DNA of 64,000 bases from contig JANWKT010000024.1 of the NCBI GenBank assembly GCA_025451235.1, positions 62,001-126,000 on the forward strand, read 5' to 3'. Shown here piece by piece: positions 24,455-51,229 of the stretch (the stretch's first letter is position 1; each line of letters starts with the position of its first letter). The stretch is from Flavobacteriales bacterium. GTDB taxonomy: Bacteria > Bacteroidota > Bacteroidia > CAIKAF01. Position numbers and translations under genes: made by a program. The notes beneath the pieces are model-generated. The model saw nothing but the letters and a program-made list of their open reading frames with translations. It did no database searches and had not been told where the DNA came from.

Positions 24455-26362
24455 ATGAGAAAATATTATTTTTCAATGCTGGTTATTATTCTATTCAGGC
24501 ATATCTCCTATGCCCAAACCACCAATATTTCGGGTACTATTAATACTTATATCGATGTGATGACCTTCGGCCCTTGCCCTAACCAGCTTGATGTAAGTAA
24601 TTCCGCAGGATTTGCCGGCGGAGATGTGGTCCTGATCATTCAAATGAAAGGGGCAACTATTGATGAAACCAATACAGCCGCTTTTGGGACCGTTACCGCC
24701 TATAATGGATCCGGTAGATTTGAAAAAGCTACCATTGCATCTATTGCCGGTAATACTATCTATTTTGTCAATGACCTTGTAAATACCTATAATGCTCCAG
24801 CTGGTAAAGTTCAAATGATCTCTATTCCTCAATATGTGGATGTGGATGTGAATGGTGTTTTGAGCTCATCTGACTGGAATGGAACCACTGGAGGAGTATT
24901 GGTTTTTGAAGCAACCGGGAATGTGGTCTTGAACGCCAATATAGATCTAACAGGAAGAGGATTTCTGGGTGGAAATAATTTACAAGTATGCCCCAATAGC
25001 TGCAATTTTACCACCAACGAAGCTAACTACTACTATCCCATTGGAAATTATCGGGGAGCACCCAAAGGGGAAGGCATTGCTGCCTTTATTATAAACAAAG
25101 AACATGGACGTGGAGCCCAGGCCAATGGCGGGGGCGGTGGAAATGATCATAACAACGGTGGGGCCGGTGGTGGAAATTATGCCGCAGGAGGAGTGGGTGG
25201 AAACAATGCCGAGCCTGGAGCTTTTAATTGCAAAGGTCAAAACAATTATGGCCGGTCGGGTTGGGCCCTTGGATTTGGAGCTGGCCCTGGCAGAGTATTC
25301 CTGGGTGGAGGTGGTGGTGCAGGGCAAGGAAATAATGGGGCCACCGGAGGCTGTCCAAACAATGGAAATTCCGGATCTGGAGGAGATGGTGGCGGCATAG
25401 TGATCATCGGTTGTAATACCTTTAATGGGAATGGATATCAGATCATATCAAGAGGGAATAATGGAGGTGGCTCGAATGCAGACGGAGCTGGAGGAGGCGG
25501 ATCAGGCGGAGTGGTTTGCTTAAACATTGCCGGCTCATTTTCAGTACCTGCTTTAACCATTGATGTAAGAGGTGGGATTGGTGGCAATGCCAATGGAAGT
25601 GCTGCGAATCGATGCTATGGACCCGGTGGAGGAGGTGGTGGTGGAGTGGTATATTCTAGTATTGCCCTACCCGGTAGCTTTACTGTAAATGCTGTTGGTG
25701 GGGCCGCAGGAATTGTGGTAGCAAGCACAAATGCCTGTAATGGTACATCCACGACGGCGTTGGCAGGATCCAATGGAAATGGTATTATCGGATTCACTTT
25801 ACCCGCCGGTACTATTCCTGCCGGACCTGGTTGTTTGCCTTTACCTATTGAACTATTGTCTTTTTATGGGGATCATATTGAACAGGCAAATGTTCTGCAT
25901 TGGACCACTGCAAGCGAAACCAATAACCTGGGTTTTTATGTGGAACATAGTTTAGATTGCATCACATTTCAATCCAGAGGTTTTGTAGAGGGTGCCGGAA
26001 ACTCAAATACCCAGCAATATTATTCATTTGCCGACGCATATCCGGAAAAAGGAATCCACTATTACAGGCTTAAGCAAATGGATATCAATGGAAGCCATTC
26101 CTACTCTCCTATTTTAAGTATTCAGGTAAACGATGACCCCGAAACCATCCTTTATCCCAATCCTACTCATGGAATCATATATTTCAAAGGTCAAAGCCTG
26201 GAAAATATGCTGGTAATGATCACAAATAACACCGGAGCCACTGTAAAATCAATAGAAATCCTAAACGGAAGCATTGATCTTTCGGACCTTAGCCCGGGCA
26301 TCTATCATCTTTTGATACCCATTAAAGGATATACGATCAGAAAATTAATCACGTTGATATAA
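24455..26362 (+). CDS. Glycine-rich T9SS cargo with type A sorting domain
   Basis: The 635-residue product has a signal peptide (MRKYYFSMLVIILFRHISYAQ). An N-terminal beta-rich domain follows (about 22-190; GGDVVLIIQMKGATID and NTIYFVNDLVNTYNAPAGKVQMI). The centre (about 200-440) is a glycine- and asparagine-rich region with many GGGGG and GGxGGN runs, like filamentous or adhesive proteins. Then comes the common linker PLPIELLSFYG...LHWTTASETNNLGFYVEHS...YYRLKQMDINGSHSYS, and last the type A sorting domain (ILYPNPTHGIIYF ... IRKLITLI). Export by T9SS is predicted. The function is unknown; an extracellular adhesive or matrix role is a guess. It follows the propeller sensors but has its own promoter. 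Confidence 0.88.
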   Translation: MRKYYFSMLVIILFRHISYAQTTNISGTINTYIDVMTFGPCPNQLDVSNSAGFAGGDVVLIIQMKGATIDETNTAAFGTVTAYNGSGRFEKATIASIAGNTIYFVNDLVNTYNAPAGKVQMISIPQYVDVDVNGVLSSSDWNGTTGGVLVFEATGNVVLNANIDLTGRGFLGGNNLQVCPNSCNFTTNEANYYYPIGNYRGAPKGEGIAAFIINKEHGRGAQANGGGGGNDHNNGGAGGGNYAAGGVGGNNAEPGAFNCKGQNNYGRSGWALGFGAGPGRVFLGGGGGAGQGNNGATGGCPNNGNSGSGGDGGGIVIIGCNTFNGNGYQIISRGNNGGGSNADGAGGGGSGGVVCLNIAGSFSVPALTIDVRGGIGGNANGSAANRCYGPGGGGGGGVVYSSIALPGSFTVNAVGGAAGIVVASTNACNGTSTTALAGSNGNGIIGFTLPAGTIPAGPGCLPLPIELLSFYGDHIEQANVLHWTTASETNNLGFYVEHSLDCITFQSRGFVEGAGNSNTQQYYSFADAYPEKGIHYYRLKQMDINGSHSYSPILSIQVNDDPETILYPNPTHGIIYFKGQSLENMLVMITNNTGATVKSIEILNGSIDLSDLSPGIYHLLIPIKGYTIRKLITLI

Positions 26363-48612: not shown

Positions 48613-50007
48613 ATGAAAACACTCCTCATTACCACCACATGTCTTTGTACCGCAATGGTAACCTTTGGTCAAACAAAGTCTTCCACCGCAGGGGTCAGCT
48701 CTAACTCCAGCAATATTCAGGTTGGATCCACTACCACTACCACCACAACTAGTACCAGTACTCATAGAGATAATGGTATAAGCAACTACAACTATAGCAG
48801 CAATGATTACGGTAGCACCAATTCAAATTCAAACAGCAACTCAAACAGTAATTGGAATACCAACTCGAATACCAACTCGAATAGCAACTCCAACAGTAAC
48901 TGGGGCAGCAATAATAATAACAACTCCTATAATTCAAACTACAACAGCAATTATAACAATGGTTATTCGAACAACAACTACAATAATAATAACAGCAATT
49001 CCAACTATTCTACCTACTCCAACCAGAGTTATAAAGTAAAAGATGATAACTATGGTTCGAAATTGGTAACAGAAGATGAAGGAGCTAAAGTGAAAAATAT
49101 TTACAATACTACCGAAAGAGTAAGCATCTATAAAACCAACAATCCCATCAATCGACTATTTACTGACAACCAGAAAGCCAGCCAGAAATTTACCATTGAT
49201 GCACAAACCCAACAAAATCTTAAAGCGGCTGACGGTACCATTATTAAAATTGCTCCCAATAGCTTTGTTACCAAAAACGGTGAAGTGGTGCAAGGAGAAG
49301 TCGACTTCGAAGTAAAAGAAGTATATAAAAGGTCTGATATGGTATTGTCGAATGCCCATACTGTGGCCAACGACCAGATCCTGATATCAGGAGGAGAAAT
49401 GTACATGGGTGCTACCAGAAATGGAGAAGCTTTAATGCTGGCCAATAACAAACCTATCTCAGTTGAAATGCCAGTGGCTACGGATGGCCCAACCAACCAA
49501 AATACCAATATGCAATTGTTCTATGGAAGACCTAATGGCAATACGGTGAACTGGAATCTGGGCAGCACCAACTCTACAACCCCTACCAGCAATTCAAATG
49601 TTAACTCGGGTCAATCATATAATTTTAATGTAGGTGCCATGGGCTGGATGAATTGCGACCAGTTTATGAGGACCCAAGGTAACAATACAAAAGTAATTGT
49701 AAATGTTCCCCGCCAGTTTGATACCACCAATACCGCAGTGTTTGTGGTTTTTAAAGGCCAAAATACGGTTACCAGGTTCGATAATTTTAGCGCCGCCAGT
49801 AATACGTATAATGTAGGCTCTTTTTATACACGTTGGTATTCATTGCCCGTTGGATCAGAAGTTACCATTGTGGCGATCGCTGAAATTGATGGCCAACATT
49901 ATTCATCCATGAGCAGAACGGTTCTTGCAAACAACCATGTTGAAAACCTGATGTTTGAACCAACCACCATGGATATATTTAAAAAAGAAATGGAAAAGCT
50001 TCCATAA
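48613..50007 (+). CDS. N/S-rich secreted protein with ZU5-like C-terminal region
   Basis: The 464-residue protein has a signal peptide (MKTLLITTTCLCTAMVTFGQ). Residues about 40-145 are highly repetitive: a threonine run, then long stretches of Asn, Ser and Tyr (SNSNSNSN and YNSNYNN types). This composition is like prion-like domains. The remaining part (about 165-464) has an ordered domain with LKAADGTIIKIAPNSFVTKNGEVVQGEVDFEVKEVYKRSDMVLSNAHTVANDQILISGGEMYMGATRNG, which resembles ZU5-like beta sandwiches of Bacteroidota surface proteins. A T9SS sorting domain is not seen. The gene at 50231 has a matching layout. Function unknown; an assembly or matrix role is conjecture. Confidence 0.8.
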   Translation: MKTLLITTTCLCTAMVTFGQTKSSTAGVSSNSSNIQVGSTTTTTTTSTSTHRDNGISNYNYSSNDYGSTNSNSNSNSNSNWNTNSNTNSNSNSNSNWGSNNNNNSYNSNYNSNYNNGYSNNNYNNNNSNSNYSTYSNQSYKVKDDNYGSKLVTEDEGAKVKNIYNTTERVSIYKTNNPINRLFTDNQKASQKFTIDAQTQQNLKAADGTIIKIAPNSFVTKNGEVVQGEVDFEVKEVYKRSDMVLSNAHTVANDQILISGGEMYMGATRNGEALMLANNKPISVEMPVATDGPTNQNTNMQLFYGRPNGNTVNWNLGSTNSTTPTSNSNVNSGQSYNFNVGAMGWMNCDQFMRTQGNNTKVIVNVPRQFDTTNTAVFVVFKGQNTVTRFDNFSAASNTYNVGSFYTRWYSLPVGSEVTIVAIAEIDGQHYSSMSRTVLANNHVENLMFEPTTMDIFKKEMEKLP

Positions 50008-50030
50008 GCTCCCTAGGTTAAACCTATTGG

Positions 50031-50058
50031 AAAGACCCCTTGATGGGGTCTTTTTTTT
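50031..50058 (+). terminator. Rho-independent terminator
   Basis: A nine-base perfect stem AAAGACCCC / GGGGTCTTT with a five-base loop is followed by T residues to 50058. It stands 24 bases after the N/S-rich gene. Confidence 0.93.
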
Positions 50059-50230
50059 GCCCAGATAGCTTCGGAGTTGAACCTGTTAAATCCTCAAGTG
50101 TAATATAAAGGGTAGTTAAAATCGAAAAGGTTTATAATCATTTAAAATTTTGCTCGTTAAATGGTACGGGATTTGCCTATCTTTATCAAAGAATTGATCC
50201 TTTTTATTTTCAACAAGTAAAACAGTCAAT

Positions 50231-51175
50231 ATGAAAAACTCTTTATTCCTCCTGGTAATAGCAGCCCTTGGTTCAATGGCAACTGCTCAAAATCTTATCA
50301 TCACTCCGAATGTAGGTGTAAGCACTGGGGTTGGCACCATTACCACCACCACTACTACCACTACCACCAACTCGCCTTTTGGCAGTACCACCAACACCTC
50401 CTATGATCGTAATGTTGGAAACAATACCTATACCATCACCAATTCCAACTCACCTGGAGGAGGAGTTTCCAATACCAACTACTCGAACAACAACGGGTAT
50501 AATAACAATACCTATAACAACAATAGCTATACGAATGGTTATAACAACGGGTATGGAAATGGCTACAACAATGGATACGGAAATTCAAATAATTACAACA
50601 ACGGGTACAATAACCAGTCGAATTACACCTATAGCAATGATGGTTATGGCAGCACGGTTGAAATTGAAGATGACAAAGGAAACAGGACCATTATTGAAAC
50701 TACCACAGATTCAACTGCCGCCCTTGAAAGAAAGTCGGTACTGGAAAATATCAGTAAACATATTGTTCACTTTACAGGTTTGGTCATGTCGGACGCCTTT
50801 GATGATGGTGACCTTTCCAAAGCATATGTAATGGATAAATACTCTGAGTTTTTAAAGCCGGGTAAGTATGGCAACATCAGTTCAACCCTGCCTAATTCAG
50901 TAAAATACACTTTCGATGGGATAGCCATCCCACCTAAAACCAGGCTGATCATTTATAGCGGTTCAAATTTTACCGGTGATAAACTGGTGGATATTACTGG
51001 TCCAGCCATTATTAACAATAGTAAATGGCAAACGGACGACCGTTATATGACCGCTAATACCAAAACGTACTGCACTGAATTACAAACTACTTTCCCGCAA
51101 AGTACCCGGCAGTGGAGTATAAACGACATGCATAACTGGCAAAACGGTTCTATAGAGATCATTGAGATCCCCTAA
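50231..51175 (+). CDS. N/Y/G-rich secreted protein with beta/gamma-crystallin-like end
   Basis: A 314-residue protein with signal peptide MKNSLFLLVIAALGSMATAQ. It has a Thr run and then a low-complexity segment (about 75-140) of repeated NGYNNGYGNGY units. An acidic linker follows (EIEDDKGNRTIIETTTDS). The C-terminal part (about 155-314) has TRLIIYSGSNFTGDKLVDITGPAIINN and STRQWSINDMHNWQNGSIEIIEI, which resembles beta/gamma-crystallin-like motifs. No T9SS domain is apparent. The same combination of signal peptide, Thr-run and Asn-rich tract is found in the gene before it, so they are probably related in role. Confidence 0.78.
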   Translation: MKNSLFLLVIAALGSMATAQNLIITPNVGVSTGVGTITTTTTTTTTNSPFGSTTNTSYDRNVGNNTYTITNSNSPGGGVSNTNYSNNNGYNNNTYNNNSYTNGYNNGYGNGYNNGYGNSNNYNNGYNNQSNYTYSNDGYGSTVEIEDDKGNRTIIETTTDSTAALERKSVLENISKHIVHFTGLVMSDAFDDGDLSKAYVMDKYSEFLKPGKYGNISSTLPNSVKYTFDGIAIPPKTRLIIYSGSNFTGDKLVDITGPAIINNSKWQTDDRYMTANTKTYCTELQTTFPQSTRQWSINDMHNWQNGSIEIIEIP

Positions 51176-51196
51176 AGGAAAAAATTCTTGTGTAGA

Positions 51197-51229
51197 AAGC
51201 CTGTTAGCTATAGCCAACAGGCTTTTTTT
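51197..51229 (+). terminator. Rho-independent terminator
   Basis: Nine-base stem AAGCCTGTT / AACAGGCTT with a ten-base loop, followed by a run of seven T residues, 21 bases after the N/Y/G-rich gene. Confidence 0.93.

Follow-up and report, generated by a model that had tools for sequence, protein, structure and literature searches.

The P1 and P2 gene pair

The window, meaning the whole 64,000-nucleotide stretch of Flavobacteriales DNA that was analysed, carries a pair of genes whose products are here called P1 and P2 (Table 1). A sequence-only reading of this DNA had described each product as a signal peptide and a Thr-run followed by an Asn-rich tract and a distinct ordered part, and that two-part layout is found in both proteins, whose ORFs are uninterrupted in the ORF list of the window. 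The signal peptides were called by eye and from the mean hydropathy over residues 3-18, without SignalP. Since terminator-like hairpins with T-runs follow both genes, P1 and P2 are each probably transcribed alone. The stretch 50014-50050 between the genes folds at -14.2 kcal/mol (z -2.44), with a second small hairpin included in the minimum structure. Neither of the two folded hairpins was listed by a consensus terminator scan. A Bacteroidetes-type promoter pattern gave no site at either gene, and a consensus scan returned fewer sigma-70-like sites than in shuffled sequence.

Table 1. Features of the P1 and P2 genes, in positions of the window
Feature	Coordinates	Strand	Basis or comparison
Gene 1 (P1), 464 aa	48613..50007	+	ORF; G001 orthologue of ordered part at 57% identity
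P1 signal peptide, residues 1-20	48613..48672	+	Called by eye; mean hydropathy 1.71
P1 low-complexity tract, 122 aa, Thr-run then Asn/Ser-rich	48673..49038	+	120 aa in G001
P1 ordered part, unnamed Bacteroidota family	49039..50004	+	Match in 31/60 genomes
Hairpin plus T-run, terminator-like, between P1 and P2 genes	50031..50058	+	Folding; T-run read from sequence
Gene 2 (P2), 314 aa	50231..51175	+	ORF; orthologue of equal length (314 aa) in G001
P2 signal peptide, residues 1-20	50231..50290	+	Called by eye; mean hydropathy 1.74
P2 low-complexity tract, 118 aa, Thr-run then Asn/Tyr/Gly-rich	50291..50644	+	117, 136, 120 and 118 aa in G001, G008, G004 and G012
P2 segment linking tract to crystallin domain (beta hairpin plus helix in model, low confidence)	50645..50752	+	
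P2 predicted divergent beta-gamma crystallin domain	50753..51172	+	Foldseek, profile, VIA-align; signatures in 11/11 rows
Terminator-like hairpin 3' of gene 2	51194..51229	+	Folding: -17.4 kcal/mol, z -4.53

The description of the pair as secreted proteins holds in part, as both carry an export signal but neither has a T9SS sorting domain. Searches with TIGR04183 and TIGR04131 gave no match in P1, P2 or their orthologues in G001, the second species of the genus, and three neighbours in the window matched a T9SS sorting domain in the same search. We infer that both products leave the cytoplasm by the Sec route and reside in the envelope or at the surface. Elsewhere in the window, positions 24455-26362 encode a Gly/Asn-rich protein that ranks below the cut-off for an AgmC-like match but has a type A sorting domain of the T9SS.

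Composition of the low-complexity tracts

The P1 tract (residues 21-142) consists of 34% Asn, 27% Ser, 12% Thr, 9% Tyr and 5% Gly, and the P2 tract (residues 21-138) of 30% Asn, 19% Thr, 14% Gly, 12% Tyr and 10% Ser. The tracts hold five and three charged residues and 7 and 11 residues of the ILVMFW set, respectively. When the window's 48 non-overlapping ORFs that are 100 aa or longer are ranked by the Asn fraction of any 80-residue stretch, P1 and P2 come first and second (0.47 and 0.39), and the next ORF reaches 0.19. The two proteins are likewise first and second, at 0.17 and 0.18, among the 28 ORFs of the window that yield a PAPA-type score, which was calculated outside the PAPA program and is read against the threshold of 0.05 as used in PMC12322145. 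By this PAPA-type calculation, both tracts would have the prion-like composition that the sequence-only reading had ascribed to them. Bacteroidetes are one of the two phyla for which PMC6400439 reports the highest fraction of prion-like predictions.

The same reading had stated that codons in the tracts are mixed, and the counts agree with it. AAC and AAT are used 22 and 19 times in the P1 tract and 17 and 18 times in the P2 tract, a usage that departs from the average AAC fraction of the window (0.34), and Ser is encoded by six different codons in the P1 tract and five in the P2 tract. Tandem Repeats Finder detected only weak arrays of 3-24 bases with scores of 34-78, so slippage of the DNA does not fully account for the tracts. 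In the core of the P2 tract, a Tyr is met every 4-6 residues. Just one of seven tracts had its aromatic residues spaced more evenly than chance would give (5% level), and aromatic patterning was dropped as an argument for phase separation.

Apart from the query, a search of seven genomes with the N-terminal region of P1 gave two matches below E 1e-3, the P2 region at 6.3e-5 and the orthologue in G001 at 7.4e-5, making the P2 arm the sole other match of the P1 arm in its own genome. Evidence of a relation between the two arms is weak, since P1 was absent from the matches up to E 1 when the P2 arm served as query. When the P1 and P2 tracts were aligned against shuffles that hold the Thr zone and the Asn zone apart, 0, 16, 0 and 3 of 500 shuffles reached the real alignment in four pairings. 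The P1 arm is possibly a copy of the P2 arm, or the two may have converged.

Asn-rich stretches also occur in other proteins of these genomes. They were hand-picked from pattern matches, of which 15 were fetched and 10 contained such an ORF. In the genome of the window, a Glucosaminidase and a LysM domain are joined by a near-pure poly-Asn linker (L075:1373-2338), and a lipoprotein-like product consists mostly of sequence rich in Asn, Tyr, Ser, Gly and Trp (L078:649-1944). G001 encodes a papain-like/DUF1036 protein with a poly-Asn tract between its domains (L081:684-2294) and a secreted-looking protein with a poly-Asn tract before a caspase-like domain (L080:1247-2641). Trp/Asn tracts of the NPNWNNN type, in which Asn makes up as much as 63% of a 60-residue stretch, precede DUF4476 in two other genera (L083:1620-2660 and L084:1273-2040, the latter by eye), and L076 and L082 are a similar pair with an Asn-rich stretch. 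In a genome of genus g5, DNA repeats of six bases that are almost identical to one another form a long array (G013:C14:717-875).

Conservation of the tracts

The same-genus comparison rests on one second species, G001, whose assembly is 77% complete. The P1 and P2 orthologues adjoin each other there, and in G001 as in the window the pair precedes the same valyl-tRNA synthetase gene (named by eye). The ordered parts are about 57-58% (P1) and 75% (P2) identical between the two species. The P1 tract measures 122 aa in the window and 120 aa in G001, and the P2 tract 118 and 117 aa, respectively. The P1 tract stays rich in Asn and Ser (Asn 34 and 33%, Ser 27 and 22%, Tyr 9 and 12%), and the P2 tract in Asn, Gly and Tyr (Asn 30 and 27%, Gly 14 and 17%, Tyr 12 and 12%). 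Alignments of the orthologous tracts beat those of shuffled tracts with z values of 5.8 (P1) and 10.4 (P2), and the DNA 15-mers that the orthologous tracts have in common number 1/346 and 0/337. Synonymous differences at identical residues affect 32/58 codons in the tract versus 89/175 in the ordered part of P1, and 34/65 versus 66/126 in P2; the corresponding figures within g4 are 39/70 and 78/139. Because lengths and composition are kept while codon turnover is as high as in the ordered parts, a protein property rather than a DNA repeat seems to persist in the tracts. Alignment of low-complexity sequence can pair non-homologous residues, and as shuffled tracts already align at 43-44% identity the codon turnover is consistent with selection on amino acids rather than proof of it. 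Conservation at the amino acid level, which the sequence-only reading had proposed, is borne out between the two species of the genus.

That reading had also named conservation of tract length among strains as a check, with free variation or loss in close relatives counting against it, and the outcome depends on distance. The lengths in G001 agree, but further out the tract is dispensable, being absent or replaced outside the genera g1 and g4. Three g4 genomes have a P2 ordered part that is about 60% identical to that of the window, preceded by an arm of 120 aa in G004, 136 aa in G008 and 118 aa in G012, and a fourth, G010, gave no P2 match. Asn makes up 17, 21 and 15% of these arms, which contain more Gln and, in two of the three genomes, more Ser; aromatic residues are fewer in two of the three. 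Arm length in g4 is thus better kept than composition. A Pfam match of the g4 tract to Mucin was below the cut-off and was regarded as noise.

The ordered part of P2

Sequence libraries gave nothing useful for the ordered part of P2, and PHROGs had no match. Pfam Crystall (PF00030, cut-off 25 bits) matched in none of five genomes, with the control positive in 2 of 14 genomes. A phmmer search gave a weak pointer to Protein S (E 0.059), and a profile built from 11 relatives reached Protein S (1prr) at E 6.5e-4 as its best match. The structural model, predicted from a five-row alignment, has a pLDDT of 65.8 and a pTM of 0.63, a middling confidence that limits the fold assignment. At that confidence the model agrees with the superfamily's fold, which is a beta sandwich of about 85 residues with two Greek-key motifs, and differs by extra residues inserted ahead of the final strands (region 127-150). 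The best 12 Foldseek matches of the model are all beta-gamma crystallins, among them 1nps at E 1.3e-4 (TMt 0.66, TMq 0.36). VIA-align, the list of which served for the crystallin fold only, gave nitrollin (Z 8.0, 97 residues, 3.7 A), the C-terminal region of a GH29 fucosidase (Z 7.5) and 1nps (Z 7.3, 81 residues, rmsd 2.2 A). Weak Pfam matches of single P2-family domains to a toxin domain and to transglutaminase were rejected as noise.

The signatures of beta-gamma crystallins are YxxxxY/FxG and the Tyr corner GxY (PMC3551895). YxxxxFxG and GxY are present in all 11 family rows (P2 of the window and 10 relatives), with one YxxxxFxG per domain rather than one per Greek key, and L108 has GxY only. 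Judging from the predicted model together with the profile and signatures, the ordered part of P2 is a divergent beta-gamma crystallin with the Protein S fold. The canonical calcium motif N/D-N/D-X-X-S/T-S is found in none of the 11 rows, nor in L108, so the claim made for P2 is one of fold membership without calcium binding. The calcium motif is not universal in the beta-gamma crystallin superfamily, the lens members being an exception.

The P2 ordered part is a rare family. It occurs in 11 of the 16 genomes of the taxonomic family, which is the whole order in the genome collection used, in 12 of 395 genomes in a sample of the class, and in 1 of 395 in a sample of the phylum, that one being the window's own; scans of viruses and of plasmids returned no match. 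The N-terminal partner of the domain is exchanged. In g4 the crystallin domain carries an Asn/Ser/Thr arm, and in six g5 genomes an OmpA-like domain precedes it in place of the arm (L036 and L041, the two proteins scanned with Pfam, both exceed the cut-off, and the other four were judged by eye). In G317, which belongs to another family, a TPR-like region with Pfam matches below the cut-off precedes a domain of 46% identity.

The ordered part of P1

An initial scan of genome contigs with P1 gave no match. Relatives of its ordered part are widespread in Bacteroidota, being found in 31 of 60 genomes, and two distant matches lie on plasmids. No Pfam, NCBIfam or PHROGs family was found for it. The homologues were surveyed at 30 loci, one each from 30 of the 31 matching genomes. 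A tract is present in two of the 30, namely P1 of the window and the orthologue in G001, and none of the 30 loci holds a tract-bearing relative outside the genus. A strict lipobox pattern occurs in 13 of the 30. Inspection by eye adds further lipoprotein-like homologues and some with a transmembrane segment inside the protein. Genes for P1-type domains adjoin ECF-type sigma factor genes at L042:8183-10273 and L044:5043-7900, and the homologues at L021, L027, L028 and L030 look by eye like anti-sigma-type proteins with an inner transmembrane segment. The sigma factor neighbours and the anti-sigma-type homologues suggest a periplasmic sensing role for the P1-type domain.

A model of the P1 ordered part from a two-row alignment had a pLDDT of 38. 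Candidate relationships were set aside. A P1 profile matched a designed repeat protein in the PDB at E 8e-4 (none of the individual stretches reaching significance) and, at E 0.019 and worse, antibody light chains; both were taken as noise from beta-rich composition. The third domain of GldM was the best Pfam match of P1-family members, at E 0.014, below the cut-off.

What the N-terminal arm may do

The most probable explanation, held tentatively, is that the arm is a selected low-complexity segment that substitutes for an anchor and holds P1 and P2 by weak Tyr/Asn contacts. After the signal peptide, each protein would have an uncharged, probably disordered arm of about 120 residues, made of a Thr-run and then of Asn with recurring Tyr, and under constraint at the amino acid level. 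This arm would sit where homologues have an envelope anchor. Relatives of P1 have a lipobox or a transmembrane segment in that place, and relatives of P2 an OmpA domain of the peptidoglycan-binding type. The arm may hold P1 and P2 at their site through many weak contacts with itself and with the other arm, with Tyr as stickers and Asn, Gly and Ser as spacers, and so display the C-terminal domains, the putative divergent beta-gamma crystallin of P2 and the unnamed domain of P1. Weak multivalent holding is favoured because the arm lies at the anchor's place, is nearly uncharged and combines Asn with recurrent Tyr, and because CsgF offers a precedent. The lengths and gene-specific compositions kept in G001, the arm of P2 that persists in g4, the exchange of N-terminal partners and the match between the P1 and P2 arms also count in its favour. 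Weighing against it are the Asn-rich linkers elsewhere, the drift of composition in g4, aromatic residues that in six of seven tracts are not spaced more evenly than random at the 5% level, the failed reverse search, the lack of a T9SS domain and, among the 30 loci fetched, the lack of a tract-bearing P1 relative beyond the genus. A more specific form, in which the arm is an exchangeable envelope anchor that replaces a lipid or peptidoglycan anchor and gathers P1 and P2 in a shared surface or periplasmic condensate via their matched Asn/Tyr arms, is doubtful.

That the arm is a plain spacer is nearly as likely as the holding arm, since these genomes encode a number of unrelated exported proteins that have Asn-rich linkers. 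It would then be a flexible, uncharged, protease-tolerant and perhaps O-glycosylated tether that sets the distance from membrane or wall to the domain, in a lineage that builds its tethers from Asn, Ser, Thr and Gly. Such stretches lie between or before folded domains in L075, L080, L081, L083, L084 and L076/L082, and the better conservation of length than of composition in g4 speaks for a spacer. However, the P1 and P2 tracts are N-terminal with no folded domain ahead of them and would separate nothing unless the signal peptide stays uncleaved, the two arms are alike in residue order and not in composition alone, and the Tyr spacing in the P2 core also speaks against a mere tether.

Functional amyloid, in which the tracts would form cross-beta fibres in an extracellular matrix, is improbable. 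The prion-like composition and the PAPA-type scores agree with it, but high composition scores are frequent in Bacteroidetes according to PMC6400439, the tracts have few hydrophobic residues, and no repeat of the curli beta type was seen by eye. In addition, a relative of CsgF (PF10614) was found in none of five genomes, with the E. coli control positive. Amyloid, matrix and spore roles of P1 and P2, the latter two conjectured in the sequence-only reading, are unsupported. Protein S of Myxococcus coats spores, and spore-like assembly receives oblique support in that the fold predicted for P2 is that of Protein S. Least probable of all is a functionless, neutral expansion through DNA slippage, as the short imperfect arrays of 3-24 bases and the many P1 homologues that lack a tract are outweighed by tract lengths kept within two residues while the ordered parts are 58-75% identical, and by gene-specific compositions kept with almost no 15-mers in common.

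Relation to known systems and significance

To our knowledge, bacterial condensates outside the cytoplasm are hardly known. One reported extracytoplasmic case is CsgF from the curli system of E. coli. PMC10133297 describes this exported protein, whose N-terminal region is prion-like, as forming functional surface condensates driven by aromatic residues. Like CsgF as described there, P1 and P2 have an export signal and, ahead of the folded domain, an N-terminal region that contains Asn and is putatively prion-like, and the stickers of CsgF are aromatic. Unlike that of CsgF, the arm of P1 and P2 is about three times longer and Tyr-based, and no curli context was seen. An Asn-rich, disordered-looking tract on a modular protein is also a feature of candidate bacterial prion-like domains such as that of Clostridium botulinum Rho. 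Rho is described as cytoplasmic and RNA-binding, whereas P1 and P2 are predicted to be exported envelope proteins. The Asn/Ser/Thr-rich linkers of cell-wall hydrolases, exemplified by the glucosaminidase-LysM protein, are likewise Asn-rich, but the arms of P1 and P2 are N-terminal, longer and rich in Tyr.

The C-terminal part of P2 has the same predicted fold and the same signatures as the microbial beta-gamma crystallins, which include Protein S, clostrillin, flavollin of Flavobacterium johnsoniae and spherulin 3a. The P2 family differs from these in having neither a Pfam Crystall match nor the canonical calcium motif, in the insertion before the last strands, and in the N-terminal partner of its domain, which is a putatively prion-like arm, OmpA or a region resembling TPRs. 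Among the open-licence papers searched, none was found on prion-like asparagine-rich tracts in Bacteroidetes or on a prion-like tract combined with a gamma-crystallin in bacteria. The new content is the crystallin domain, as predicted, together with the exchange of N-terminal modules. The P2 family would add to the crystallins a sub-family that the Pfam model misses, and related bacteria that bear one crystallin domain on three kinds of N-terminal partner (arm, OmpA or TPR-like) offer a natural experiment, so that the work done by the arm can be tested by exchange.
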